A stretch of DNA of 43,356 nucleotides, taken from positions 1 through 43,356 of the forward strand of contig JABUEW010000025.1 in NCBI GenBank assembly GCA_013314855.1, given 5' to 3'. The notes beneath the pieces are model-generated. The model was not told the DNA's origin, searched no databases, and saw nothing but the letters and a program-made list of their open reading frames with translations. This DNA is from Bacillota bacterium (lineage in GTDB: Bacteria; Bacillota; Clostridia; Acetivibrionales; DUMC01). Position numbers and translations under genes: made by a program. Shown here in pieces: positions 29,232 through 43,356 of the stretch (its first letter is position 1; each line of letters begins with the position of its first letter).

Positions 29232-31075
29232 ATGAGCTATATTAATTATTTACCAAAACCTCTTTTAGGTGACATAATTAATAACCAATGTATACCAATC
29301 ATTGGAGCAGGATTTTCTTTAAATGCTGTAGTATCAAGAGGAGGGAAGATGCCCCTTTGGGAAGACTTGGGGAAGAAATTTGCCAGTGAATTACTGGAAT
29401 ACCCGTATAATAATCCGGTAGATGCTATATCCGCATATTGCCATGAGTATTCTAAAATTAAGCTTATTGAGAAACTGACAGAATATATTCATATAATGGA
29501 TTCAAAACCTGGCGATGTGCACACAGCATTTTGCAGTATCCCTTTTGATATTGTTTGCACAACTAATTTTGACTTTCTTCTGGAAAGAGGTTATGAAAAA
29601 ACTGGAATGTATTGTCTCCCAATCATTGAAGAATCACAATTGCCGATCTCTAATAGAAAATATGATTTGATTAGTGAAGTACCAAAAATATCTTTATTAA
29701 AACTTCATGGAGATCTTAATCACCCCGAGAGAATAGTCGTTACTGAACAGGATTATGATTCATTCTTAGATAAGTATCCTTTAATATCGACCTACTTGGC
29801 AAACCTATTAATTACAAGAACGCCAATTTTTATTGGTTATAGTCTTGATGATCCTGACTTTAGACAAGTCTGGCAAATTATTAATGAAAGACTAGGAAAA
29901 CTGTGTCGTCCAGCATACGCTTTAGTAGTCAATTCTGACAGGGCTACCATTTCAAAATTTGATAGAAGAAATGTTAAAGTAATTAATATTCCAGGCAAAG
30001 GATACCAGCAAGTTTTGGTTAAACTATTTAAAGAAATAAGGGAATACTGGATTAAATCTCAAGATGTTAACAAAACTCTTCAAGATCAAACATTAGCTGA
30101 ACTATCTCTACCGGTAGAATCTGTTGGTCGCTTATGTTATTTTATGATTGCTTCAAAATATCAGTCGTTTTATAAAAGCTATGTATACCCAATTGCAAAA
30201 GACTATGGAATTACTCCAATATCATTTGATGAAGCAATTTCCGCGGGAGATAATAACATATTAGCAAGAGAAATAGCTTTAATTGAAAGAGCGGATTTAA
30301 TAATAATTGATATTGATAATGAAAGACAGTTAGAATCACTTCAAATTGCGATGGAGAAAAGAAAGAAACAAGTTTATTTGCTTGTTGTTCATGAAGGGGG
30401 AGTCTTATTTAAAATATACAGAGAATACCAGAAATATTCAAAAACCAAAAGATTTATTTAACGAACCTGGCCAGTTTATCCAGCAGATAGAAGAATGGTT
30501 CAAATATGTATCGAGTGATTTGCGCTCTAAATTAAGTGAGGAGCCTAGGTGTTAGCAGTTTCTTTATTTGGGACTGGAATAATCACCTTATCTGGGACTA
30601 AAAACTTTCAACGCAAAAGTCAGTCTGTCCGTTAAGGCTTACAGGTATAACCACTACAGAGATCATATACTGCATTTTAACAATCCCAAATAGAGTGATT
30701 TTTATCCTGTCATAGTCCCAAAAAGAGTGACCGGTAACACCTAGGCGTTTACTAAAAAAGAAAGAGTATAATGCTGCGGTTATATCCGCCATATCTTTAT
30801 TCGAGAACAACTTAAGAAGAGCGATTGAACAAAGAAAGGAATCATGCGAAAGTGAATCCATCCGTCCAATGCCATTAATTAAGTTGATTTCTATAGCCAT
30901 GGAATTGCAACTATTGCCTGGTTGGTTAAAAAAGGAATATAAGCTTGATGAATGGATACATATTAGAAATCAGGTAGTTCATAATGGTTTGAATGTACCG
31001 CATCGTACTGCTAATGAAATAGTAAATGGAGTCTTAGGTATTATGGATAAGTTAAACTATTTTAACGTGACTTAA
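29232..31075 (+). pseudogene. Broken three-domain SIR2 / TIR-like / HEPN defence-type gene
   Basis: The first frame (29232-30461, 409 codons) encodes a SIR2-type NAD-binding domain: PIIGAGFS near residue 22, TTNFDFLLERGY near 110, LLKLHGDLNHPE with the catalytic His (about residue 159), and FIGYSLDDPDFRQVW. A second domain (about 295-400; YFMIASKYQSFYKSYV, ERADLIIIDID) resembles TIR/nucleoside deoxyribosyltransferase-like folds. Removing one G from the G5 run (30396-30400) opens the downstream frame to 30549. Excising 30550-30745 joins it in frame to 30746-31075, a HEPN-like domain with the RNxxxH motif IRNQVVH (about 30965-30982). The repaired protein has about 548 residues. GGGGGA precedes the ATG. 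Probable role: abortive-infection NADase with an RNase module (inference). Now inactive unless the first ORF works alone. Confidence 0.75.
30544..30745 (+). mobile_element. 190-bp miniature transposon with 6-bp target duplication (CCTAGG)
   Basis: The element (30550-30739) starts TGTTAGC and ends GGTAACA and is flanked by CCTAGG at 30544-30549 and 30740-30745. Each end has two oriented boxes: TTTGGGACT (30567) and CTGGGACT (30592) on the left, TCCCAAA (30684) and AGTCCCAAA (30714) on the right. Paired internal end repeats with TG...CA termini resemble IS21/Mu-type transposons, so this is probably a MITE of that group. Deleting the element plus one CCTAGG restores the reading frame of the HEPN gene exactly. 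It has no credible gene of its own. Confidence 0.8.
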
Positions 31076-32292: not shown

Positions 32293-34059
32293 GTGGAGAA
32301 AAAGGAAAATGTAAAATTATGTCATACGTTTTTATGGTCGATAAAACAAATAAAGGACTATATGTTTATCTTTTTTATCAATTTACTCTTGGGTTTCACT
32401 GCAACTGCAATCAACATAATCGTAGTAAGATTAACTGAGGTTGCAATTTCTAAAGCTATAGGTGAAAGGGGCGCTTTTACTCAGGTTGTAATTTTTCTTA
32501 TTTTTGTCTTAATTTTAGGCCTCTTGATCAATACATTGCAAAAATACATTGGAGGCATATTAAGCACAAAAGTTACATATAACTTAAAAAGCTTGTTTAA
32601 TAAAAAGATATTGTCATTGGATAGAGCATCCAAAGATGCGCTGCATTCCGGTGATATTATCTCAAGATTTAATCATGATATTAATACTATAGCTGCCTTT
32701 GTACCCGGAGGTTTATATAATATTATATTTCAAATTATCATGGCAGTTGCTGCAGCAATATATATGATTTTTATAAATTGGCTCTTATTAATAGTAAGTA
32801 TTGCCTTTTTACCGGTTGCTATGTATGTATTAAATGTACTTCGAAAGAAAATGGGCAAATATTTTATGCAAGATAGTGAAAACCGCGGAAAATCCAATAT
32901 AGTTGCAAATGAAACCATCAAAAATATATACTTAACTAAATCATACAATTTGCAAGATTATATGTCCAATAAAATCAAAGTGTTTTATCAAAACTCTCTT
33001 GACAGTTGGATAAAAATACATAAAATTTTCTCACCGATTTTAATGATAACAATAATGCTGCAACATTTACCTAAGTTTATTTCTATTGGTTTTGGCGGAT
33101 GGCTGGCTCTGAATGGTTATTTGAAACTGGAAAATCTAGTGGCATTTGTTATGCTTTTGGATTATGTCATAAAACCTATTATAGCAATACCACAAATTAT
33201 TGTAACAATGTCGTCCGCCGGGACATCAATTAAAAGGTTGGAGTCAATTTTAGAGCTGCCTGATGAAAGAACTGGCGGTGATGATGTTGATAAATTTGAG
33301 ATTAGTCCGATACTGTTAGAAGCAAGGGATTTAACATTTGGCTATAACAAGAACAAAACAGTCTTGAACAATATAAACTTCAGACTCAGACAGGGAGAAT
33401 GGATCGCGATAGTGGGGAAAAGCGGGAGCGGAAAAAGCACTTTCATCAAACTGCTTACCGGTGATTATGAACCTCAGTCGGGCTGTTTACTGCTTTATGG
33501 TCAGCCGTATAACACATTGTCAATCAGAAGTATTAGAAGTAAAATTGCTTTAGTATCGCAAGACATAACAATATTTCCACTTAGCGTAAGTGAAAATATA
33601 GCAATAGGAAGCCCCTATAAAAACATCTCTCAGGAAAAAATTGAAGAGGCGGCAAAACTTGCAAATGCGCATCAGTTTATTATGAAGCTGCCCGATAAAT
33701 ATGATACTATATTATACGAAAACGGTGCTAATTTGTCGGGCGGAGAAAAACAAATGATATCTATTGCCCGTGCATTTCTGAAAAACGCTCCTATCATCTT
33801 ATTGGATGAGCCAACATCTGCATTGGATGCACAATCAGAAAGCATTATAAAAGAGTCTTTGAGCCGGCTTACACAAAATAAAGGTGTAATAATCATATCT
33901 CACAAGCTGTCATCAATTATAAATTCTGATAAAATACTGGTTTTTAAAGATGGCTACCTAATAGATGAGGGATGTCATTCAGAGTTGTTGGAAAGAAATG
34001 ATTATTATAAAAATCTATGTTTATATGAATTTATAAAAGACAAAGAGGTATGTGTATGA
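32293..34059 (+). CDS. ABC exporter half-transporter, TMD-NBD (first subunit)
   Basis: A 588-residue half-ABC exporter, starting at GTG with GGAG 8-12 bases upstream. Six membrane segments fill residues 20-310. The nucleotide-binding domain has Walker A GKSGSGKST (about residue 374), the intact signature LSGGEKQ (about 480), Walker B IILLDEPTSALD (about 500) and the His of the H-loop in ISHK. There is no peptidase C39 domain, so it is not a bacteriocin maturation exporter. It overlaps the next subunit gene by 4 bases (ATGA) and is the first gene of the AHBA-NRPS operon, probably exporting its product. Confidence 0.9.
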   Translation: MEKKENVKLCHTFLWSIKQIKDYMFIFFINLLLGFTATAINIIVVRLTEVAISKAIGERGAFTQVVIFLIFVLILGLLINTLQKYIGGILSTKVTYNLKSLFNKKILSLDRASKDALHSGDIISRFNHDINTIAAFVPGGLYNIIFQIIMAVAAAIYMIFINWLLLIVSIAFLPVAMYVLNVLRKKMGKYFMQDSENRGKSNIVANETIKNIYLTKSYNLQDYMSNKIKVFYQNSLDSWIKIHKIFSPILMITIMLQHLPKFISIGFGGWLALNGYLKLENLVAFVMLLDYVIKPIIAIPQIIVTMSSAGTSIKRLESILELPDERTGGDDVDKFEISPILLEARDLTFGYNKNKTVLNNINFRLRQGEWIAIVGKSGSGKSTFIKLLTGDYEPQSGCLLLYGQPYNTLSIRSIRSKIALVSQDITIFPLSVSENIAIGSPYKNISQEKIEEAAKLANAHQFIMKLPDKYDTILYENGANLSGGEKQMISIARAFLKNAPIILLDEPTSALDAQSESIIKESLSRLTQNKGVIIISHKLSSIINSDKILVFKDGYLIDEGCHSELLERNDYYKNLCLYEFIKDKEVCV

Positions 34060-35792
34060 ATAAAAAAGACTATATTAAAGAATTGTTTCAGGTATATGAT
34101 TTAATTGGAAATAAAAAAATCCAATATTTTTGTACAATTGTTATAACAGGATTAGCGCTACCTCTAATGCAGATCTTTTTTGCTTTTGCATATAAAAGAT
34201 CTATTAATGCAATAGAATATAATGATTATTCATTATTTTTTAGTGCATGCATATTGTTTTTTCTAGCAATTGTTATTCAGTGTTTAATAGAACCGATTGC
34301 AAATTGCTATAATGGTTGTTTAGTGAATAAAATCCTTTTTAAAATAAGGAATAAAGTCTATAGGCATACAATAGAATTACCTGTTTCCTACTTAGAAAAG
34401 AATCATTCTGGGGATATTATTTTAAGGCTTACGGGAAATGTTGATTCTTTTGAACCTATTTTCAGAGGGGCTTTCCGTGATATTATGCAATCTCTTTTTT
34501 ATGGTGGTGGTGCTTTAATATCAATGTTAGTTATAAATTATAAATTAGCGTTATGTTCATTGTTTTTCTCAATAATATCTTTGATTATCAATTCATCGTT
34601 TACAAAAACGTTCAGAAGCCTGGGGAAGTTAAAGCAGGAACAGGATTCAATATTGGTACAATCATTTATTACTACATATACATGCGGAGACACTGCGAAA
34701 ATGTTTTGCAAAGAAGATATTCTGATTGACAGCTTTAATAGTGTAAATAAACAGTTAACAAAGACATCGATGCAGATAATAATGAAAGAAATGATTAAAG
34801 AAAATTTAAACTATATTGTCAGCAATATATCTAGAATGTGTGTCCTTATATTTGGATTGGTTATGGTAATGAAAAGTCAAACAGATATTGGTTCCGTTGT
34901 TGGCATTATAACTTTGCAAGATGGCGTAACGAACATGTTCATTTCGATTGGAAGCTTTTTTGCAAATATGCAAAGTAATTTGGCAAGTGTGGCAAGAGTT
35001 TTTGAATTACTGCGTACCTCTCCGGAAAAGTCCCGATATGATGTGAAAGAAAGTAGTATAGCCAGAGATGATGATATCATATCTTTTGAAAATGTCAGCT
35101 TCTCATATGATCGATGTAGAAAATCGTTAGATAACATATCTATAAATATTAAAGAAAATATTATGGTAGCAATTGTGGGACCGAATGGAAGCGGAAAATC
35201 AACTATCATCAAATTGCTTCTTGGATTTTATCCTCCAGATGGCAAGATAACTTTGTGTAAAAAAGCTTTCGGTGAATATAAGCTGTCTGAAATTCGGGAA
35301 AAAATATCATATGTTTCACAGCAACCCGTATTGTTTAATGCTACTGTTTTTGAAAATATAAGTTACGGTAAACCGGATGCCATAATGGAAGAAGTCATAG
35401 ATGCTGCGAAACTGGCAAATATTCATGACTTTATAACAAGTCTTGAGGATGGTTATCAATCAATTGTTGGAGAAGACGGAGTAACAATGTCAATCGGGCA
35501 AAAGCAAAGAATAATAATAGCACGTGCATTGATTAAAGATGCACCAATTATATTATTTGACGAAGCAACGTCTGCGCTTGATGTTGAGAATGAAGGGGAT
35601 ATAATACAAACGCTTAAGAATATCAAGGGCAAGAAAACAATTATTATTGTTACACATAGACTGAGTTCGATTCAGGACGCTGATTTGATAGTGGTACTGA
35701 AAGATGGTCAAATAATAGATAAGGGTGACCATAAATATTTGCTAAAAAACAGCTGCGTTTATAAAAAACTATATGAACTGCAATCTGTATGA
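34056..35792 (+). CDS. ABC exporter half-transporter, TMD-NBD (second subunit, degenerate signature)
   Basis: A 578-residue partner subunit. The ATG at 34056 is favoured because AGAGG (34044-34048) is 7 bases upstream; the ATG at 34050 is too close. The NBD has Walker A GPNGSGKST and Walker B IILFDEATSALD, but the signature reads MSIGQKQ instead of LSGGQ. One intact and one altered signature is the usual pattern of heterodimeric exporters with one working ATP site. The start overlaps the stop of the first subunit, so the two are made together. Confidence 0.9.
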   Translation: MNKKDYIKELFQVYDLIGNKKIQYFCTIVITGLALPLMQIFFAFAYKRSINAIEYNDYSLFFSACILFFLAIVIQCLIEPIANCYNGCLVNKILFKIRNKVYRHTIELPVSYLEKNHSGDIILRLTGNVDSFEPIFRGAFRDIMQSLFYGGGALISMLVINYKLALCSLFFSIISLIINSSFTKTFRSLGKLKQEQDSILVQSFITTYTCGDTAKMFCKEDILIDSFNSVNKQLTKTSMQIIMKEMIKENLNYIVSNISRMCVLIFGLVMVMKSQTDIGSVVGIITLQDGVTNMFISIGSFFANMQSNLASVARVFELLRTSPEKSRYDVKESSIARDDDIISFENVSFSYDRCRKSLDNISINIKENIMVAIVGPNGSGKSTIIKLLLGFYPPDGKITLCKKAFGEYKLSEIREKISYVSQQPVLFNATVFENISYGKPDAIMEEVIDAAKLANIHDFITSLEDGYQSIVGEDGVTMSIGQKQRIIIARALIKDAPIILFDEATSALDVENEGDIIQTLKNIKGKKTIIIVTHRLSSIQDADLIVVLKDGQIIDKGDHKYLLKNSCVYKKLYELQSV

Positions 35793-36508
35793 AAAGGATG
35801 ATAAATGAGACAATGAGTAATGAGAGAATAAAGCTATTATGTATACCATATGCCGGGAGTTCTGCATGCTATTATAACAAATGGACGCCATATTTTAACA
35901 ATAATATAACAGTGCACCCTGTAGAACTTGCTGGAAGGGGCATCCGAAGTGATGAGGGCTTTTATAATAGTTTCGACGATGCTATAGAAGATTTATTGAA
36001 TAAAGTATTAAGAATTATTGGAGAATCAGAATATGTATTATTTGGACATAGTATGGGGGCTCTTATTGCATATGAACTATGCAACAGATTGATAACGAGT
36101 GAGGTAAAAAAACCCAAACATCTTATAGTATCTGGTTATGCCGCCCCACATCTACCGCAAACGGACTTAAATAAAGATTTCGAAGATATTGCTGCAGAAT
36201 TGGGTGGTATTTCAGATGAGGTATGGAATGATCAAGATTTGTATAATATTTTTATGCCGATTTTAAAATCCGATTTCCAACTACTTAAGGAGTATAATTA
36301 TCCCAAAAACAGAAAACCAATAAGTACAGACATTACAGTATTTTATGGGGAGGAGGATACTAAAACTCCGTTCACAAAAGTAGTAAAATGGAGAGAATTA
36401 ACAAGCGGCATGTTTTACTGTTATTCATTTAAAGGAGGACACTTTTTTATTAACCAGCATATGGAAGAAGTAATTGATTGCATTAAAAATATTATTAGCA
36501 ATAAATAG
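35789..36508 (+). CDS. Type II thioesterase (GrsT-like) of the NRPS operon
   Basis: An alpha/beta-hydrolase of 239 residues. LLCIPYAGSSACYYNKW and VELAGRG are signatures of type II thioesterases that clear mis-primed carrier proteins in NRPS/PKS lines. GHSMG carries the nucleophile Ser (about residue 88) and GGHFFI the catalytic His. ATGs at 35789, 35798 and 35813 are possible starts. 35789 overlaps the upstream stop (ATGA), suggesting coupling, but none has a strong SD. It is good evidence that an assembly line belongs to this operon. Confidence 0.88.
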   Translation: MKRMINETMSNERIKLLCIPYAGSSACYYNKWTPYFNNNITVHPVELAGRGIRSDEGFYNSFDDAIEDLLNKVLRIIGESEYVLFGHSMGALIAYELCNRLITSEVKKPKHLIVSGYAAPHLPQTDLNKDFEDIAAELGGISDEVWNDQDLYNIFMPILKSDFQLLKEYNYPKNRKPISTDITVFYGEEDTKTPFTKVVKWRELTSGMFYCYSFKGGHFFINQHMEEVIDCIKNIISNK

Positions 36509-36524: not shown

Positions 36525-37388
36525 ATGAGAATTTTACCTGTACAAAAAAAATATTGTAATTGTATTCAAATGATAATAATTTCATATGCAGAAAGTAAAA
36601 ATATACCATATGACCATATGTTTTTGACTAAACTCAATTTAACAAAAGATTTTTATGGATTTTTGCGATTAGAAGATGAAAATGATTTAAATTTAAGCTT
36701 TAAAAAAAATTTAAGTATAAGGAAAGAATTGATACAGTATGATAACTTGGATGATTTATTTGTTCACATTAATTTAAAATTGGAAGATACGCCGATATTA
36801 GTTCATATTGATGCATTTGCATGTCCTTGGAATGAAGCATACAAAAAAATCAATGTTTGCCACTGTTTTTTAATAATTGATATTATTGGTGATACCTTAA
36901 TAATTGTTGATCCTTACTGCTCAAAGGATATAATTCGGATAGATAAAAATATCCTATATAAATGGAAAGCTATAGAAGGTAATTTGGTTTATAAGCTGGT
37001 AATAGCTGCTTTAAAATACGAACCTGTCATAATAGAAGAGAAATTTTATTACAATATACTGGTTGATATAGTAAAAGTATTCGATATTGCAAAATATAAA
37101 GCAATTTGTGCTGATTTTTATGAACGGATTCGGGAAGATAAGTCTTATTGGAAAGACGAAAATCTATATATGAATCTGATTATGAACATAAATAATATCG
37201 CTTCACACCGCATGTTATTCGCAGAATCGCTAAATTACATCATACATGTATACCCCGATACTTATTATTCTTTAAAAGTATTGATACCATTATTACAGGA
37301 AATAAGCAAGAATTATACTTTCCTGAAAAATTTTTTTGTTAAAGAATTATTAACTCAAAAATCAAAAATCAAAAAACAAAGAAATTAA
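36525..37388 (+). CDS. BtrH-like (BtrH N-terminal domain) acyltransferase candidate
   Basis: A 287-residue protein resembling the BtrH N-terminal domain family. The N-terminus (CNCIQMIIISYAE) has the likely nucleophile Cys, a middle His follows in NVCHCFLIIDI, and DPYC comes after a loop. BtrH transfers an acyl chain from an acyl carrier protein to an aminoglycoside in butirosin synthesis; family members often occur in firmicute NRPS loci. Here it may release or transfer the carrier-bound product, or act in chain transfer, which is inference. Low-complexity, Lys/Asn-rich C-terminus. Operon position between the thioesterase and the AHBA genes. Confidence 0.65.
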   Translation: MRILPVQKKYCNCIQMIIISYAESKNIPYDHMFLTKLNLTKDFYGFLRLEDENDLNLSFKKNLSIRKELIQYDNLDDLFVHINLKLEDTPILVHIDAFACPWNEAYKKINVCHCFLIIDIIGDTLIIVDPYCSKDIIRIDKNILYKWKAIEGNLVYKLVIAALKYEPVIIEEKFYYNILVDIVKVFDIAKYKAICADFYERIREDKSYWKDENLYMNLIMNINNIASHRMLFAESLNYIIHVYPDTYYSLKVLIPLLQEISKNYTFLKNFFVKELLTQKSKIKKQRN

Positions 37389-37492: not shown

Positions 37493-38557
37493 ATGTTTAA
37501 AATAGGAATCATCGGTTGCGGATGGATTGTGAAAAAAGCATATTTGCCTGTTCTTGCCCAAATGAGCGATGTGAAAGTAAGCGGAATATTTGACATCAAT
37601 TTTAAAAATGCGAGTAATATACGGAAGCAATACAAAATCTACGACAATATAGACGATTTTTTATGCACATCGCATGATGCTGTTATAATTGCTACACCAA
37701 ATAACACTCACTCATATTATACAAATCTGGTTTTAAATTCAGGCATACATGTATTATGTGAAAAGCCTGTGGCATTTACAAGGTCTGCTGCTGAATTTTC
37801 AGTTTCCACAGCTAAAGCGAATCAAAAAATTTATCTTCCTGCGCTTGTAAACAGATTCAGAAAAGACGTTTTGAAATTCTGTGAGCTGGTTTCTTTGATT
37901 GGTGAGGTACTGGAAGTTGATGTCAGCTGGATTCGCAAATCAGGAATACCAAGGCCAGGCACATGGATTACAAACAGGGAAAAAGCAGGTGGCGGAGCAT
38001 TAATTGATATTGGTACTCATGTAATAGATATAGGTTTAATGTTTATTTCAGACAAAAGAATAAAACATGAACATTTGATTTACGTAACCATTGAAGATAT
38101 TGAACACAAAGGAGCCCAATGGAATATGAGCAATGAAAGCCAAAATATATCCATTGATGTGGAGACTTGGGCCAAGGGTGAAATAGTATTTGGCAATAAT
38201 GTAGTACTGAAATTTAATGTTAGCTGGGCGTCCGATGTCAGCGAGGATGTTACAGCTATTAAAGTGGTTGGGACCAATGGGACAGTCAGTATGGACACAT
38301 TGTTCGGGTTTAGCAACAATTTTATGCGGAAAAATATTATAATTAGACATACAGCGAAGGATGGCAAAGAGGAAACTGTATACTTCCCAATGAATAATAC
38401 ATTTGCGTTAGATGCTTTTAGTGACTTGGTTACCTATTTTATTGATTTGATATATGGGAATCGATTGAAAATTCTACAGCCGTCAGACGGTATTTATATT
38501 GTTGATGCGATAGAAAGGCTTTATAAATCATCTTTTATGAGGAAGGTGGATATATGA
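37493..38557 (+). CDS. Gfo/Idh/MocA oxidoreductase, RifL-like (AHBA pathway)
   Basis: A 354-residue NAD(P)-dependent sugar dehydrogenase. GIIGCGWIV is the Rossmann loop, VIIATPNNTHSYY follows, and LCEKPVAF holds the catalytic Lys (about residue 93). GGGALIDIGTHVIDI is the second family signature. In rifamycin-type clusters RifL oxidises the 3-position of a glucose derivative before amination to kanosamine, and NtdC of Bacillus does the analogous step. The order of this gene with the kinase, dehydratase and AHBA synthase supports the RifL-type role. AGAGG precedes the ATG. Confidence 0.8.
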   Translation: MFKIGIIGCGWIVKKAYLPVLAQMSDVKVSGIFDINFKNASNIRKQYKIYDNIDDFLCTSHDAVIIATPNNTHSYYTNLVLNSGIHVLCEKPVAFTRSAAEFSVSTAKANQKIYLPALVNRFRKDVLKFCELVSLIGEVLEVDVSWIRKSGIPRPGTWITNREKAGGGALIDIGTHVIDIGLMFISDKRIKHEHLIYVTIEDIEHKGAQWNMSNESQNISIDVETWAKGEIVFGNNVVLKFNVSWASDVSEDVTAIKVVGTNGTVSMDTLFGFSNNFMRKNIIIRHTAKDGKEETVYFPMNNTFALDAFSDLVTYFIDLIYGNRLKILQPSDGIYIVDAIERLYKSSFMRKVDI

Positions 38558-39477
38558 GCTATATCGGATTGGATATAGGTGGCTCGAATGTAAGGTTTGC
38601 TGTAACCAATGACTGGAATTTAAATAACTTGGAATATAATAAGAAGCCTTTTGTAAGATCTGGAAATCCTCAGAATGAAGTTGAAGAAAATATATGCAGC
38701 ATAATTGATGATGTTTCTGATTGTGTTGAAGGCTTGAGTATTTCACTTGCAGCAGTGATGGATCGTAGCCGTAAGAAAGTGAAGATATGGCCTAATAATC
38801 CATCCTGGAACCATTACGATTTAGTACAACATCTAAATAGCAGATACAATGTGCCCATTGTTATAGAAGACGATGCAAATTGCGGAGCCATATGTGAGTA
38901 TTATTTTCTAAAGGATTCTGTTAGAAACATGGCTTATATAACAATTGGGACTGGCATAGGATGCGGATTAATTTTAAACGGTTCACTTTTCACAGGAGAG
39001 AACGGTTTTGCAGGAGAATTGGGGCATATATATATGGGCTATGCAAGCAATGACAGCATGTGCAGCTGTGGGAATCAATCATGTTTTCAAGCGGTTGCTT
39101 CAGGTCCGGCTGTGCTAAAGAAATACAATTCTGTTGCCAAAACTCGTTTGATGTCATTGGAGCAAGTCCACAGGAAATACTTATATGGTGATCCCATTGC
39201 CGCAAAGTGTTTGTCTGACATGATAGATTGTATTTCAGGGGTTATATATAACCTTGCTATGTGTTTGGATATTCCGCTTTTTATAATGGGGGGTGGAGTA
39301 AGCAATATGGGAACAAACCTGATATCGCAAATTGAGAAAAAAGCAAATGAGCGCCTAGAATTTTTCGAACGCAGAATATCTGTTAAACAGGCGCATTTTG
39401 GAGAATTTAGCGGGGTATATGGAGCTTTGCAACTGCTTAAAAACTATTACTCATGGGGAAAGGAGAATAACCTATGA
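38554..39477 (+). CDS. ROK family sugar kinase, RifN-like kanosamine kinase
   Basis: A 307-residue ROK kinase overlapping the oxidoreductase gene by 4 bases (ATGA). GLDIGGSNVRFAVT is the phosphate loop, IEDDANCGAICEYYF holds the catalytic Asp, GTGIGCGLIL the second phosphate site, and GELGHIY with CSCGNQSCFQ the zinc site of the ROK family. RifN phosphorylates kanosamine at C6 to feed the aminoshikimate route. Its position beside AHBA synthase and aminoDHQ synthase makes this assignment more likely than glucokinase. Confidence 0.8.
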   Translation: MSYIGLDIGGSNVRFAVTNDWNLNNLEYNKKPFVRSGNPQNEVEENICSIIDDVSDCVEGLSISLAAVMDRSRKKVKIWPNNPSWNHYDLVQHLNSRYNVPIVIEDDANCGAICEYYFLKDSVRNMAYITIGTGIGCGLILNGSLFTGENGFAGELGHIYMGYASNDSMCSCGNQSCFQAVASGPAVLKKYNSVAKTRLMSLEQVHRKYLYGDPIAAKCLSDMIDCISGVIYNLAMCLDIPLFIMGGGVSNMGTNLISQIEKKANERLEFFERRISVKQAHFGEFSGVYGALQLLKNYYSWGKENNL

Positions 39478-39926
39478 GCAGGAAAAGGATAGCAGTCATC
39501 AATGGGCCTAATATAAATATGCTGGGTAACAGGGAAGTCCGAATTTATGGGACAGAAAGCTGGAATTCAATTGAGAAAAAGGTTGAAGCTATCGGGAAAC
39601 AAATAAATGCTGAATTGATATTCTACCAGTCGAATTATGAGGGAGACATTGTTAATTTTATTCAGCAAAATATCGACAAACTGTCCGGAGTAGTTATTAA
39701 TCCTGCAGCTTTATCAAAAACAGGGTATTCGATACTGGATGCACTTAACGCTCAAGGAACGCCATATGTGGAAGTACATTTGTCAAACATTGTTGCCAGG
39801 GGCGGGTGGCATTCCGAGTCTATATTTACCGAAAACGCAGTAGGTTTTATTATGGGACTTAAAGGTTATGTTTATGAATTAGGTTTATTAGCAATAAATC
39901 ATTATTTAGAGGAGAAAGGAGAATAA
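39474..39926 (+). CDS. Type II 3-dehydroquinate dehydratase-like, RifJ-like aminoDHQ dehydratase
   Basis: A 150-residue type II dehydroquinase. NGPNINMLGNREVRIYG keeps Arg20 and the catalytic Tyr25. INPAALSKTGYS replaces the usual INPAAxTHTS, and HLSNIVARGGWHSES is altered after HLSN relative to housekeeping AroQ. These changes lie in substrate-contact loops and fit the amino substrate of the AHBA pathway (aminoDHQ to aminoDHS), though that is inference. It overlaps the kinase gene by 4 bases, and the AHBA synthase gene follows after 2. Confidence 0.8.
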   Translation: MSRKRIAVINGPNINMLGNREVRIYGTESWNSIEKKVEAIGKQINAELIFYQSNYEGDIVNFIQQNIDKLSGVVINPAALSKTGYSILDALNAQGTPYVEVHLSNIVARGGWHSESIFTENAVGFIMGLKGYVYELGLLAINHYLEEKGE

Positions 39927-39928
39927 AT

Positions 39929-41137
39929 ATGGAAAAATTAGCAATTAAGGGGGGCATAAAAACGAAAACAAAGCCTTTTCCGAAATGGCCGTATTCAAAC
40001 GAACGGGAACTCGAGTTAGTGGGAGAAGTGCTTTCAAGTGGAAACTGGTGGCGAATGACAGGAGATAAAGTAAAGACCTTTGAACGAAATTTTGCAGCTC
40101 TTCATGATGTTAAATATTGCTTGGGAGTGACCAATGGAACACATGCCATTGAGCTTGCTTTAACGACTCTGGGCATTAAGAGAGGAGACGAGGTTATTGT
40201 TCCTGCTGTAACCTTTATATCAACAGGGTCTGCAGTAATTTATTCAAACGCAACTCCAGTGTTAGTCGATATCGATCTTGAAACTTATTGCATGAATCCC
40301 GACGCATTTGAAAAAGCAATTACACCAAGAACAAAAGCAGTCATTCCAGTACATATGGCAGGTCATTCATGTGATATGGAAAAAATCTGTGCAATAGCTA
40401 AAAAGCATAACATCAGAGTTATTGAGGATGTCGCGCATGGGCATGGCGGTCAATGTAATGGAAAGATGCTTGGGTCATTTGGTGATATTTCTATCTTTAG
40501 CTTTCAAAACGGAAAAATCATGACATGCGGGGAAGGTGGCGCTATTATTACGAATGATGAGGAACTATATAAGAGGGCATATTTGATTCATGGAGTTGGA
40601 CGTCCTGAAAATGACCGAGTATATGAGCATAGGGTTCTCGGCTCTAATTATCGTATGAATGAGTTCCAAGCTGCTATTCTAATAGCACAGCAGGAACGAT
40701 TAAATGATATGAATAAAAAGAGGGACAGAAATGCGCTGCTGCTAGATTCACTATTGGCTGATGTAGACGGAATTAAGCCGCAAGCGCGTAAAGAGTATGC
40801 GACACTCATCACTCATTACATGTACATGTTTTATTATGACTCGAATTATTTTAATGGGCTTTCTCGGAAAGATTTTGTGGACTATCTGATTGCAGAAGGG
40901 ATACCAGCATTTATTTGCTTCCCTGTATTATCCGATACAACTTTTTTCAAAAACAATGATTTCCATGGCCGCATTGATGAATTTGAACAATCCATATCAA
41001 ATGACTTATCAAACGCAAAAAATGTTGCCGCTAATGTTGTATGGCTTCCCCATTATACGTTACTCGGTGATGAACAGGACATTATTGAGATTGCCAGTGC
41101 GATTAAGAAGATTCAAAGAGCTGTAAATATGAAATGA
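39929..41137 (+). CDS. 3-amino-5-hydroxybenzoate (AHBA) synthase, RifK-like
   Basis: A 402-residue DegT/DnrJ/EryC1/StrS-family aminotransferase/aromatase. The PLP Lys is K196 in FSFQNGKIMTCGEGGAII, matching the FQNGK-MTAGEGGA of RifK-type AHBA synthases rather than the usual SFxxxK of sugar aminotransferases. VTNGTHAIELAL binds the PLP phosphate, EDVAHGHGGQ holds the cofactor Asp, and GSNYRMNEFQAAI is the family C-terminal motif. RifK aromatises aminoDHS to AHBA and also transaminates the keto-sugar to a kanosamine form. It lies 2 bases after the dehydratase gene. Confidence 0.85.
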   Translation: MEKLAIKGGIKTKTKPFPKWPYSNERELELVGEVLSSGNWWRMTGDKVKTFERNFAALHDVKYCLGVTNGTHAIELALTTLGIKRGDEVIVPAVTFISTGSAVIYSNATPVLVDIDLETYCMNPDAFEKAITPRTKAVIPVHMAGHSCDMEKICAIAKKHNIRVIEDVAHGHGGQCNGKMLGSFGDISIFSFQNGKIMTCGEGGAIITNDEELYKRAYLIHGVGRPENDRVYEHRVLGSNYRMNEFQAAILIAQQERLNDMNKKRDRNALLLDSLLADVDGIKPQARKEYATLITHYMYMFYYDSNYFNGLSRKDFVDYLIAEGIPAFICFPVLSDTTFFKNNDFHGRIDEFEQSISNDLSNAKNVAANVVWLPHYTLLGDEQDIIEIASAIKKIQRAVNMK

Positions 41138-41147
41138 GGCAAATATA

Positions 41148-41795
41148 ATGTTTAGAAATATTATTTTTGATTTTAACGGAGTTATCATTAATTCCCATGA
41201 TGTTCAGGTCAAAGCTCTTACAGAATCGTACAGAGCTGTTTGTGGTAAAGGCGTACCTCCATATGATGAGTTTTTTCGGCTCTGTGGGGATAGCTTGGCA
41301 AACATTTTTAAGCAACTCAATTTGCCATCATCCATGATTCCAATTTATCAGCAAGTAAGCAGGGAAAATATTCATTTGATTAGAATTCATGACGGAATGT
41401 TTGAATTATTACAAAAACTGAATGAGATTGGTTACAATTGTGCTTTGTGTACTGGAAAAGAACGAAGTCGGACAATGGAAATACTCAAGCACTTCAATTT
41501 AGAAGATTTTTTCCGGATTGTTGTTTGTTCAGATGACGTACAAAATCCTAAACCGCATCCTGAAAGCTTACTGCTGATTATGGAAAAATTAAATGCATCA
41601 AAAGATGAGGTAGTAATGGTTTGCGATGGTATAAATGATATTATGGCCGCAAAAAATGCAGGGATAAAATCAATTGCTGTCACATGGGGGGATATTTGCA
41701 GGGATGTGTTGATTGAAAGCCAACCAACATATCTGGTAGACAATGTTTTAGAATTAATTATTAAGATAGGTATCGGGAGTGGCAATAGTGAATAG
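41148..41795 (+). CDS. HAD-superfamily phosphatase, RifM-like
   Basis: A 215-residue beta-PGM-like HAD phosphatase: IIFDFNGVIINSHD (nucleophile Asp8), CALCTGKERSR, NPKPHPESL and VMVCDGINDIMAAKNAG. The second acid of the DxD motif is Asn (D-F-N), as in some HAD phosphatases, so the reaction may differ from standard members. In rif-type clusters RifM dephosphorylates an intermediate before kanosamine kinase acts. The gene ends inside the next gene, whose ribosome binding site lies within it. Confidence 0.8.
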   Translation: MFRNIIFDFNGVIINSHDVQVKALTESYRAVCGKGVPPYDEFFRLCGDSLANIFKQLNLPSSMIPIYQQVSRENIHLIRIHDGMFELLQKLNEIGYNCALCTGKERSRTMEILKHFNLEDFFRIVVCSDDVQNPKPHPESLLLIMEKLNASKDEVVMVCDGINDIMAAKNAGIKSIAVTWGDICRDVLIESQPTYLVDNVLELIIKIGIGSGNSE

Positions 41796-42864
41796 ATTAA
41801 AGGTAAATTTAGCGCAATCTGGATATGAAATCGTTATACATGATAATTTTTCGGAAATATCTAATGAAATTAAACCATTATGGTCAGGGGAAAAGATAAT
41901 TATCATTACTGACGATATTGTCGGAAAGTTATATTTATGCCCATTGGTTTCGGAGTTGAGTAAAATATGTTCTGTGATTTATTCATTTACATTGCCCAAT
42001 GGGGAAGGCAGCAAGAGTATTGAAACACTGAACCGTATTTATGATTTTATGTTATCAAAGCGTGTTGACAGGTCTGATTTGATTGTAGCATTAGGAGGCG
42101 GAGTGGTTGGAGATGTTGCCGGCTATGCAGCGGCAACGTATTTAAGGGGAATAGCTTTTATCCAGGTTCCTACCACACTATTGGCACAGATTGATAGCAG
42201 TGTTGGGGGAAAGGTCGCTATTAATTACCAAGGTTATAAAAATATGATTGGCTCTTATTATCAGCCATTGCTTGTGTACATTAATATCAGCGTATTGAAG
42301 ACACTACCTGAAAGAGAGTTTAAATGCGGATTGGTTGAAGCTGTGGTTCATGCGTTGATAGCTGATGCAAGTTTGCTGCAATACATGCATGAATATGTTA
42401 AAGATGTTGATACTTTAAAACAATGTAAAATAGAAGAGTTCATCTACAGGAATTGTAAAATTAAAGCAGAGATAGTTGAAAAGGATGAGAAGGATAAGGG
42501 GATTCGCAAGATATTGAATTTTGGGCATACAGTAGGTCATGCAATTGAAGGATTGTACGGATATGAATACAAGCATGGCGAATGTGTTGCAATAGGTATT
42601 GTGGCAGCATTTAAACTGAGCGTCTATTTTAAACTTATCAGTGAGGAAAAATTATGCTATATAAAAGCAGTATTAAGCAGTTTGGGGCTTCCTTTACATA
42701 TTGATGGTCTTAATTGGATTTCCGTTGTAAAAAGGATTGTTTTTGACAAGAAAGCTTTGTCGGATAAGGTTACTTTCATTTTGCCTATTGATATAGGTAA
42801 GGTTATTGATTATGAGGTGAGCCTTGATAATCTTGAGAATATTTTTTCAAGTTATGATATCTGA
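41788..42864 (+). CDS. 3-dehydroquinate synthase-like, RifG-like aminoDHQ synthase
   Basis: A 358-residue protein of the DHQ synthase family. ALGGGVVGDVAGYAA and PTTLLAQIDSSVGGK are the NAD and substrate loops. EAVVHAL, FGHTVGHAIE and YKHGECVAIG supply the three metal ligands Glu, His, His. In an AHBA locus it converts aminoDAHP to aminoDHQ. The GTG at 41788 is preferred: GGGAG (41775-41779) is 8 bases upstream, whereas GTG 41779 lies inside it. The start overlaps the phosphatase gene's stop. Confidence 0.85.
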   Translation: MNRLKVNLAQSGYEIVIHDNFSEISNEIKPLWSGEKIIIITDDIVGKLYLCPLVSELSKICSVIYSFTLPNGEGSKSIETLNRIYDFMLSKRVDRSDLIVALGGGVVGDVAGYAAATYLRGIAFIQVPTTLLAQIDSSVGGKVAINYQGYKNMIGSYYQPLLVYINISVLKTLPEREFKCGLVEAVVHALIADASLLQYMHEYVKDVDTLKQCKIEEFIYRNCKIKAEIVEKDEKDKGIRKILNFGHTVGHAIEGLYGYEYKHGECVAIGIVAAFKLSVYFKLISEEKLCYIKAVLSSLGLPLHIDGLNWISVVKRIVFDKKALSDKVTFILPIDIGKVIDYEVSLDNLENIFSSYDI

Positions 42865-42913
42865 CATGTTTGTTGGAAAAAGCAAATAATACTTTTAAAG
42901 AATGGTGATATAT

Positions 42914-43228
42914 ATGAATATTATATTTGAAAACAAAGAGTATGGAGATTTATATAATAAATGTGTTATTGAAAAATTCAAGAAAAATTATCCTGAACCT
43001 AAGTGTGTTGCTGTTTGTATGAAGAGAAGCCCGGATTTATTATTTTTATTGTATTATCTATTTAAAAATGGAATTACATATATACCTATAGATCCTACTT
43101 ACCCCCATGAACGGATTCAGTATATACTTCATGATTCGAAACCTGATATAGTTGTTTTTGATTTGGCAGAGAGTTCAAATAATGAATCAGTTTATAACAG
43201 TACTTACGCAAGCTTAATTGAACCTTGA
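42914..43228 (+). pseudogene. NRPS adenylation domain, N-terminal fragment broken before a group II intron
   Basis: About 104 codons matching the first part of an adenylation domain: CVAVCMKRSPDLLFLLYYLF, then GITYIPIDPTYPHERIQYIL (core A1-A2 region) and HDSKPDIVVFD. The ATG at 42914 has GGTGA upstream; ATG 42902 lacks one. TGA (43226-43228) ends the frame before the later cores (A3 TSGTTGxPKG and beyond), and the intron starts 9 bases later. No condensation or carrier domain precedes it, so it is probably the loading module that would activate AHBA. The remainder may lie beyond the intron outside the window. Confidence 0.75.
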
Positions 43229-43237
43229 CAAATTCAT

Positions 43238-43356
43238 GTGCGCCCAGACGAAGCTGTAGACTTGCTAGCTGGTGAAAGTCCAGTCCAAACAGACGCCAAG
43301 GGGTTTGGTAGCTATAAACCCAGTATTGTCAGTAATGGCAATGCTGAAGCGGTTTG
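43238..43356 (+). ncRNA. Group II intron, 5' end (runs off the window)
   Basis: GTGCGCCCAGACGAAG begins with the conserved GTGCG of bacterial group II introns, and GCTGGTGAAAGTCCAGTC is a conserved domain I hairpin segment. Only 119 bases are present. The intron-encoded reverse transcriptase and domains V-VI would lie past the window. The upstream exon ends near AAATTCAT. It follows the adenylation fragment by 9 bases. Confidence 0.8.

Follow-up and report, generated by a model that had tools for sequence, protein, structure and literature searches.

Results

We analysed a stretch of 43,356 nucleotides (the window), which constitutes the entire contig C25 of a probably clostridial genome of 4.43 Mb in 252 contigs, and which carries a gene cluster that we propose to encode an aminoshikimate pathway to 3-amino-5-hydroxybenzoate (AHBA). 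At its core are six intact open reading frames (ORFs) on the forward strand between positions 37493 and 42864. In order, they encode a RifL-type NAD(P) sugar 3-dehydrogenase (37493–38557; Pfam Gfo/Idh/MocA), a ROK sugar kinase proposed to act as kanosamine kinase in the role of RifN (38554–39477; Pfam ROK), a type II dehydroquinase homologue proposed as the amino-dehydroquinate (aminoDHQ) dehydratase in the role of RifJ (39474–39926; Pfam DHquinase_II), a pyridoxal phosphate (PLP)-dependent aminotransferase of the AHBA synthase type in the role of RifK (39929–41137; Pfam DegT_DnrJ_EryC1), a HAD phosphatase in the role of RifM (41148–41795; Pfam HAD_2) and a dehydroquinate (DHQ) synthase homologue proposed as aminoDHQ synthase (41779–42864; Pfam DHQ_synthase). 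The first-pass annotation of this DNA had placed six adjacent, overlapping genes of the AHBA set here, and coordinates, open frames and Pfam families agree with it. The genes are indeed tightly packed, although not all overlap: neighbours share 4 or 17 nt or lie 2 or 10 nt apart.

The aminotransferase carries the FQNGK...GEGGA motif at residues 192–205. Its closest solved relative is RifK (1b9h, 312 bits), the next kind being 2-deoxy-scyllo-inosose (DOI) aminotransferase (238 bits), while NtdA scores 138 bits. The possibility, raised in the first-pass annotation, that it groups with sugar aminotransferases was checked in a tree of 61 rows, in which it falls with RifK instead (support 99/95); seven sugar aminotransferases stand apart as a separate group (100/100), and that identity was rejected. 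The clade supported by 99/95 unites the window branch, the first and second tandem aminotransferases (AT1 and AT2) of three genomes of the same order (order-mates), a row from a gammaproteobacterial metagenome-assembled genome (MAG; L033) and 34 actinomycete AHBA-synthase rows. Within it, the window protein pairs with its counterpart from Lachnoclostridium phytofermentans KNHs2131 (100/99), and AT1, which is 62% identical, joins this pair (100/100). Since the 34 actinomycete rows form a clade of their own (100/100) with the window branch outside, this branch appears to be deep and not a recent gift from the sampled actinomycetes. Paralogues on contigs C9 and C67 of the window genome, those from six further genomes and two encoded on plasmids all lie outside the AHBA-synthase clade. 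At 59 diagnostic columns, chosen for being invariant among the AHBA synthases of actinomycetes and uncommon in 18 comparison rows, the window protein matches 25, KNHs2131 26, AT1 24, AT2 18–19 and L033 34; the comparison rows score 0–9, low values that are partly built in by the choice of columns. Membership of this clade is no proof of the reaction, as it also includes the functionally uncharacterised AT1 and AT2.

The DHQ synthase and dehydroquinase homologues are both second copies, the genome holding one further DHQ synthase on contig C27 and one further type II dehydroquinase on C48. The concern that they might be the genome's only, housekeeping shikimate copies is settled by this finding, and the separate copies, together with the altered sites described below, led us to reject the reading of the window genes as plain housekeeping ones. 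The window DHQ synthase scores above the NCBIfam AroB cut-off (358 versus 305), and it matches an AroB (247 bits) better than a DOI synthase (127 bits). Three residues past a conserved Glu, Lys is present in 40/40 AroB rows (8 actinomycete, 32 from the window's class or KNHs2131; 30 loci taken from the matches listed, with L181 outside this count) and Arg in 25/25 actinomycete RifG rows. The window (Val190), KNHs2131 and the genes of three order-mates have Val; the unclassed rows L156–L158, in neither count, have Arg, Lys and Lys. We take this site to correspond to Lys197 of the Aspergillus enzyme.

In a DHQ synthase tree of 60 rows with restored N-termini (RifG thinned to 17 of 25; L181, L190, L164 and L156–L158 dropped), the window and KNHs2131 proteins are nested within the AroBs of the window's class (99/97), and the order-mate genes are sisters of this pair (96/85). 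The housekeeping AroB of KNHs2131, a Lachnospiraceae strain and the source of the nearest named relative of the cluster, likewise lies among AroBs of the window's class, which makes Clostridia the probable class. The approximately unbiased (AU) test rejected joining to RifG, both for the window and KNHs2131 proteins (p 2.3e-8) and with the order-mates included (p 0.037), and an initial data set, in which N-termini were cut, had yielded the same position in the tree (96/91 and 95/96). By tree and AU tests, the window protein is thus not in the RifG clade. The name RifG, under which it was first annotated as aminoDHQ synthase, needs correction: it is most likely an altered AroB of the organism's own class and no orthologue of RifG.

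The dehydroquinase, which passes two of five NCBIfam dehydroquinase models, shares several substitutions with RifJ. Ser84 is replaced by Gly and Cys122 (present in 29/30 AroQ rows) by Ala in both, and Ala86 by Ser in the window and in 16 of 21 RifJ rows. Site 82, which is His in 30/30 AroQ rows, is Lys in the window and Ile, Met or Val in the 21 RifJ rows, and Arg113 is changed to His in the window only. The tree joins the window protein to RifJ with a support of 87/82 only and with very long branches. The dehydrogenase is placed as sister of actinomycete RifL (92/81, not a starred grouping, long branches); among the best 20 of 721 plasmid records, its top scores are Streptomyces genes beside an AHBA synthase, at up to 144 bits, and its best solved relative is DgpA. 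For the ROK kinase, actinomycete RifN proteins reach at most 91 bits and generic ROK proteins up to 105 bits. The HAD phosphatase scores 133 bits with TIGR01454, 'AHBA synthesis associated protein' (cut-off 246.65), and 128 bits with PpaX as the next model; the top of its best 20 of 264 records are Streptomyces HAD proteins, mostly from records that also contain an AHBA-synthase match, and its tree is dominated by long branches without resolution. The families named in the first-pass annotation as RifL, RifN, RifJ and RifM are present as stated, while orthology to RifN, RifM and RifJ could not be shown.

Of the 78 actinomycete AHBA-synthase loci, 44 contain homologues of all six proteins (tblastn of the window proteins, E up to 1e-6) and 19 more contain five, many loci ending at contig ends; among the 48 loci of at least 20 kb, the complete set is present in 31 and five members in 11. 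Such co-occurrence indicates that the grouping is not due to chance. At the L033 locus, near a contig start, the aminotransferase was the only one of the six found. These loci stem from a contig scan with the window aminotransferase and RifK using two short peptide patterns, in which 80 of 145 confirmed loci were kept; divergent relatives, such as the 62% identical aminotransferases, were missed for these reasons. Besides the 78 actinomycete loci and the one gammaproteobacterial MAG locus, the 80 include KNHs2131, whose aminotransferase is 83% identical to that of the window.

The KNHs2131 cluster (L009, L130–L132), about 42 kb as bounded here, shares with the window an exporter pair, a thioesterase, the six AHBA genes in the same order and, after them, an adenylation–peptidyl carrier protein (A-PCP) gene of the nonribosomal peptide synthetase (NRPS) type and a 3-deoxy-D-arabino-heptulosonate 7-phosphate (DAHP) synthase gene. 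The six proteins are 67–83% identical between the two, whereas identity between their housekeeping AroBs is only 43%, which suggests that the AHBA cluster was transferred between these lineages. In KNHs2131, the six genes are followed by those for a phosphopantetheinyl transferase (PPTase), a BtrH_N-type protein, which we take to be a candidate acyltransferase, an uninterrupted A-PCP, a 517-aa protein and the DAHP synthase. Its upstream extras are NRPS proteins (one with a radical S-adenosylmethionine (SAM) domain), a methyltransferase, a carbamoyltransferase, radical SAM enzymes, a glycosyltransferase and a threonine-transaldolase-like enzyme. In the 1833-aa NRPS protein (L132:5457-10955), the radical SAM domain (residues 422–585) precedes the main adenylation region. 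The transaldolase-like protein (L009:2022-3257), of the serine hydroxymethyltransferase fold, has fluorothreonine transaldolase as its best match (214 bits, cut-off 650) and hints at a beta-hydroxy amino acid.

Related aminotransferases (E 1e-80 or better) were found in six of 391 genomes of the class (four candidates scored per genome) and in six of 58 genomes of the order, the window genome being counted in each sample. Near those of the eight other genomes, homologues of the kinase and the dehydroquinase were not found in the 10–20 kb fetched, and the window genome is hence the only one in these samples with the full set. Three order-mates, G202, G243 and G409 (L122:11015-14520, L124:6622-10127, L199:12465-15964), have two tandem aminotransferases (62% and 45–48% identical to that of the window) together with a homologue of DHQ synthase in which Lys is likewise replaced by Val; kinase and dehydroquinase were not found in the 20 kb fetched, and weakly similar dehydrogenase and HAD genes lie nearby in G202 only (57 and 66 bits). 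More distant AHBA-synthase-like aminotransferases (38–43% identical; L125:10738-11952, L126:7899-9113, L203:6001-7236) occur in the window genome itself, in further genomes of its class and on plasmids of haloarchaea, in surroundings that by eye appear to concern sugar uptake and oxidation.

The full order of the window cluster is two ABC transporter genes, thioesterase, a 287-aa ORF, the six AHBA genes (L, N, J, K, M and G), the A-PCP gene (split) and the DAHP synthase gene. The flanking genes in the window are likewise on the forward strand. The two MsbA-like exporter subunits, putatively for product export, lie at 32293–34059 (TIGR02203, 341 bits, under the cut-off of 602) and 34050–35792 (352 bits, under the cut-off), each 64% identical to its KNHs2131 counterpart, and are followed by a type II thioesterase (35789–36508; PF00975; 59% identity to the KNHs2131 counterpart). 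The 287-aa ORF (36525–37388) had no match in a Pfam or a plasmid search; it shows a faint local match of 57 residues to the BtrH_N-type protein of KNHs2131 (E 3e-5 in a single comparison), and its single-sequence fold prediction (mean predicted local distance difference test score 39.8) was too poor to serve as a structure-search query. Further upstream, the window encodes a SIR2-type protein (29232–30461) similar to the ThsA and Dsr2 defence proteins.

The NRPS domain first annotated at 42902–43228 is adenylation sequence, but only the N-terminal part of an A-PCP gene (42902–43197, forward strand), split by an insertion sequence (IS). A genome search with the KNHs2131 A-PCP protein located the missing adenylation C-terminus and carrier domain on contig C105 (L103:12206-13593, reverse strand), where the DAHP synthase gene adjoins this remainder. 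Towards the window end, TTTATAA (43191–43197) is followed by the terminal inverted repeat CAGTACTTACGCAA at the left end of the IS (43198–43237), and on C105 the inverse of the repeat is followed by a second TTTATAA. A DDE transposase gene (L103:13739-14926) lies near the right IS end, between the repeat and the end of C105, and within the IS lies the 5′ portion of a group II intron (43238–43356, forward strand, exact 5′ end by eye), which runs to the end of the window, the last 91 bases matching RF02003 (43266–43356, 66 bits). The IS-bearing stretches are 43191–43356 of the window and L103:13594-14926. At the empty site the A-PCP flanks join in frame, and this, the 7-bp target-site duplication and the 14-bp inverted repeats identify C25 and C105 as neighbours separated by an IS that holds a group II intron, which also explains the contig break.

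The C105 DAHP synthase begins with a region resembling chorismate mutase, and the whole protein exceeds the threshold set for the bifunctional model NF009239 (424.5 versus 279 bits); taken by itself, the mutase part scores weakly (20.7 bits versus 106 for CM_A), and in Pfam chorismate mutase was not matched up to E 10. It is of the chorismate-mutase-fused type, whereas that of the KNHs2131 cluster is of the AroF/G/H type; the best solved relatives of these type I enzymes are 3nvt and E. coli AroG. PF01474, the RifH class, was found in neither of the two clostridial genomes searched, an Amycolatopsis control giving three matches in two places. Read by eye, the specificity positions of the C105 adenylation domain are D-I-L-Q-M-G-M-I-W, which presumably resembles a glycine code, and differ from those of the KNHs2131 A-PCP (D-L-K-N-F-G-T-D-I). 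Downstream on C105 are galactokinase-like pieces (by eye) and defence genes, among them a SIR2 and HerA pair (L103:1291-4088) whose HerA frame is shorter than the profile. Elsewhere in the genome, contig C100 (L200:4596-11031) encodes a homologue of PPTases, a stand-alone carrier protein, a protein with a pre-ATP-grasp domain and one resembling PLP decarboxylases; by eye this set resembles that for the butirosin side chain, and transposase-like ORFs lie at both ends.

Discussion

A RifK-clade aminotransferase, the six-gene co-occurrence in actinomycetes, synteny with KNHs2131, separate housekeeping copies and altered sites in the window copies all uphold the AHBA-pathway reading of the first-pass annotation, and we put the probability that the cluster encodes the aminoshikimate pathway at about 0.8, judging from sequence. 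From the observed gene set, synteny, phylogeny, second copies and altered sites we infer all of the reactions, the assignment of glycine and the nature of the product. The rif reaction order, with RifK acting twice and with isomerase and transketolase steps, follows the review PMC8788734. The presence of both a kinase and a phosphatase in the cluster fits the UDP-glucose route and not the glucose 6-phosphate route. The RifL-type dehydrogenase and the AHBA synthase would convert UDP-glucose to UDP-kanosamine, from which the HAD phosphatase would release kanosamine; the ROK kinase would then form kanosamine 6-phosphate, and a general isomerase and transketolase would yield iminoerythrose 4-phosphate. 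The cluster-borne type I DAHP synthase encoded on C105 may use the latter to form aminoDAHP, which the altered DHQ synthase would cyclise to aminoDHQ and the altered dehydroquinase convert to amino-dehydroshikimate (aminoDHS), to be aromatised to AHBA by the AHBA synthase. AHBA may finally be joined to amino acids by NRPS-type parts, including the stand-alone A-PCP with its glycine-like code, and exported. A candidate for AHBA acyl transfer would be the BtrH_N-type protein in KNHs2131, to which the window offers faint similarity only.

Several observations weigh against this interpretation. The window enzymes pass AroB and dehydroquinase profile cut-offs, so that plain shikimate activity stays compatible with the profiles, and sites 15, 53, 54 and others of the dehydroquinase are AroQ-like in the window and changed in RifJ. 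The ROK kinase shows no particular closeness to RifN over other members of the ROK family, nor is the phosphatase specifically RifM-like, that of KNHs2131 scoring 126 bits with PpaX and 124 with TIGR01454. The cluster-borne DAHP synthase belongs to a different class from RifH, and as assembled here the A-PCP gene is interrupted. Moreover, the 62% identical aminotransferase and the Val-type DHQ synthase occur in the 20 kb fetched from three order-mates without kinase and dehydroquinase, and the aminotransferase lineage may accordingly serve other chemistry too.

The interruption could mean that the cluster is decaying, i.e. that an AHBA compound was once made and that the IS ended its production in this strain. 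The inverted repeats, target-site duplication and in-frame empty site do place an IS in the A-PCP gene, and the end product may for this reason not be made by this strain; against decay, however, the six AHBA genes and the DAHP synthase gene are all open, the A-PCP of the homologous KNHs2131 cluster is uninterrupted, and AHBA itself would not need it. We regard decay as unlikely, if worth keeping in mind; it is compatible with an AHBA pathway and not an exclusive alternative to it.

Far less probable is an aminocyclitol pathway of the 2-deoxystreptamine kind, in which the DHQ synthase homologue would cyclise a sugar phosphate and the aminotransferase aminate the cyclitol. DOI aminotransferase is the second-best kind of solved relative, and the three order-mates pair tandem aminotransferases with a DHQ synthase homologue; yet RifK scores higher (312 versus 238 bits) and groups with the window protein in the tree, and the cyclase resembles AroB more than DOI synthase (247 versus 127 bits), both of which speak against the 2-deoxystreptamine pathway. 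The window also encodes a dehydroquinase with changed residues, and we know of no role for such an enzyme in a pathway of that type. Of similarly low probability is a kanosamine pathway of the ntd/kab type beside plain second shikimate copies that boost aromatic amino acid supply: a dehydrogenase, an aminotransferase and a phosphatase also make kanosamine in Bacillus (PMC8788734) and the DHQ synthase does exceed the AroB cut-off, but an ntd operon is rejected by the aminotransferase (NtdA 138 versus RifK 312 bits), the ntd/kab route begins at glucose 6-phosphate without a kinase step as described in that review, and the window copies are altered at sites invariant in the compared AroB and AroQ rows.

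We therefore return to an AHBA pathway and to the origin of its parts. A DHQ synthase nested in AroBs of its own class, the absence of a RifH-class enzyme from the two genomes and the two different type I DAHP synthases suggest that the pathway was partly re-assembled. By their sequences, the aminotransferase looks like an old shared part, as perhaps is the dehydrogenase in common with actinomycetes; cyclase and aldolase seem to have been recruited locally. In a quick-tree test on truncated N-termini (L181, L158 and L069 dropped), joining to RifG was not rejected (p 0.26 and 0.32). On balance, we judge the odds to be even that the aminoshikimate pathway has, at least in part, two origins: clostridia would have an ancient AHBA synthase lineage, and perhaps that of the dehydrogenase, in common with actinomycetes, but would have drawn their own aminoDHQ and aminoDAHP synthases from local shikimate enzymes, with the invariant Lys of DHQ synthase replaced by a different residue, and would use AHBA in undescribed nonribosomal peptides. 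One invariant position has been altered differently in two types of DHQ synthase, which opens the change of substrate from DAHP to aminoDAHP to direct testing, and the type I enzymes are candidate aminoDAHP synthases.

AHBA is the precursor of ansamycins and mitomycins, described from Amycolatopsis and Streptomyces in PMC8788734. No paper on AHBA genes in clostridia was found among the matches listed in a literature search whose scope covered few subscription papers, and among the cluster proteins scanned in the window, on C105 and in KNHs2131, the rest of the genome lying outside this search, there was no AHBA-primed polyketide synthase (PKS), a feature of ansamycin clusters. If our interpretation is true, a clostridial pathway beside NRPS genes would constitute a new source of AHBA compounds.

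Compared with known systems, the cluster shares a dehydrogenase, a PLP aminotransferase and a phosphatase with the ntd and kab operons of Bacillus, which employ another aminotransferase subfamily (138 versus 312 bits) and, according to PMC8788734, a three-gene route without DHQ synthase, dehydroquinase or kinase. With the Rif-type pathway of Amycolatopsis mediterranei and other actinomycetes it shares the AHBA synthase clade and, clustered with this gene, homologues of the dehydrogenase, kinase, dehydroquinase, phosphatase and DHQ synthase. It differs in that the aminotransferase branch lies outside the actinomycete RifK clade, in that an AroB of its own class with Val takes the place of RifG with Arg, and in that a type I DAHP synthase takes the place of the class II enzyme RifH. 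What appears to be new here is a version of the AHBA pathway whose enzymes are in part independent, located beside NRPS instead of PKS genes.

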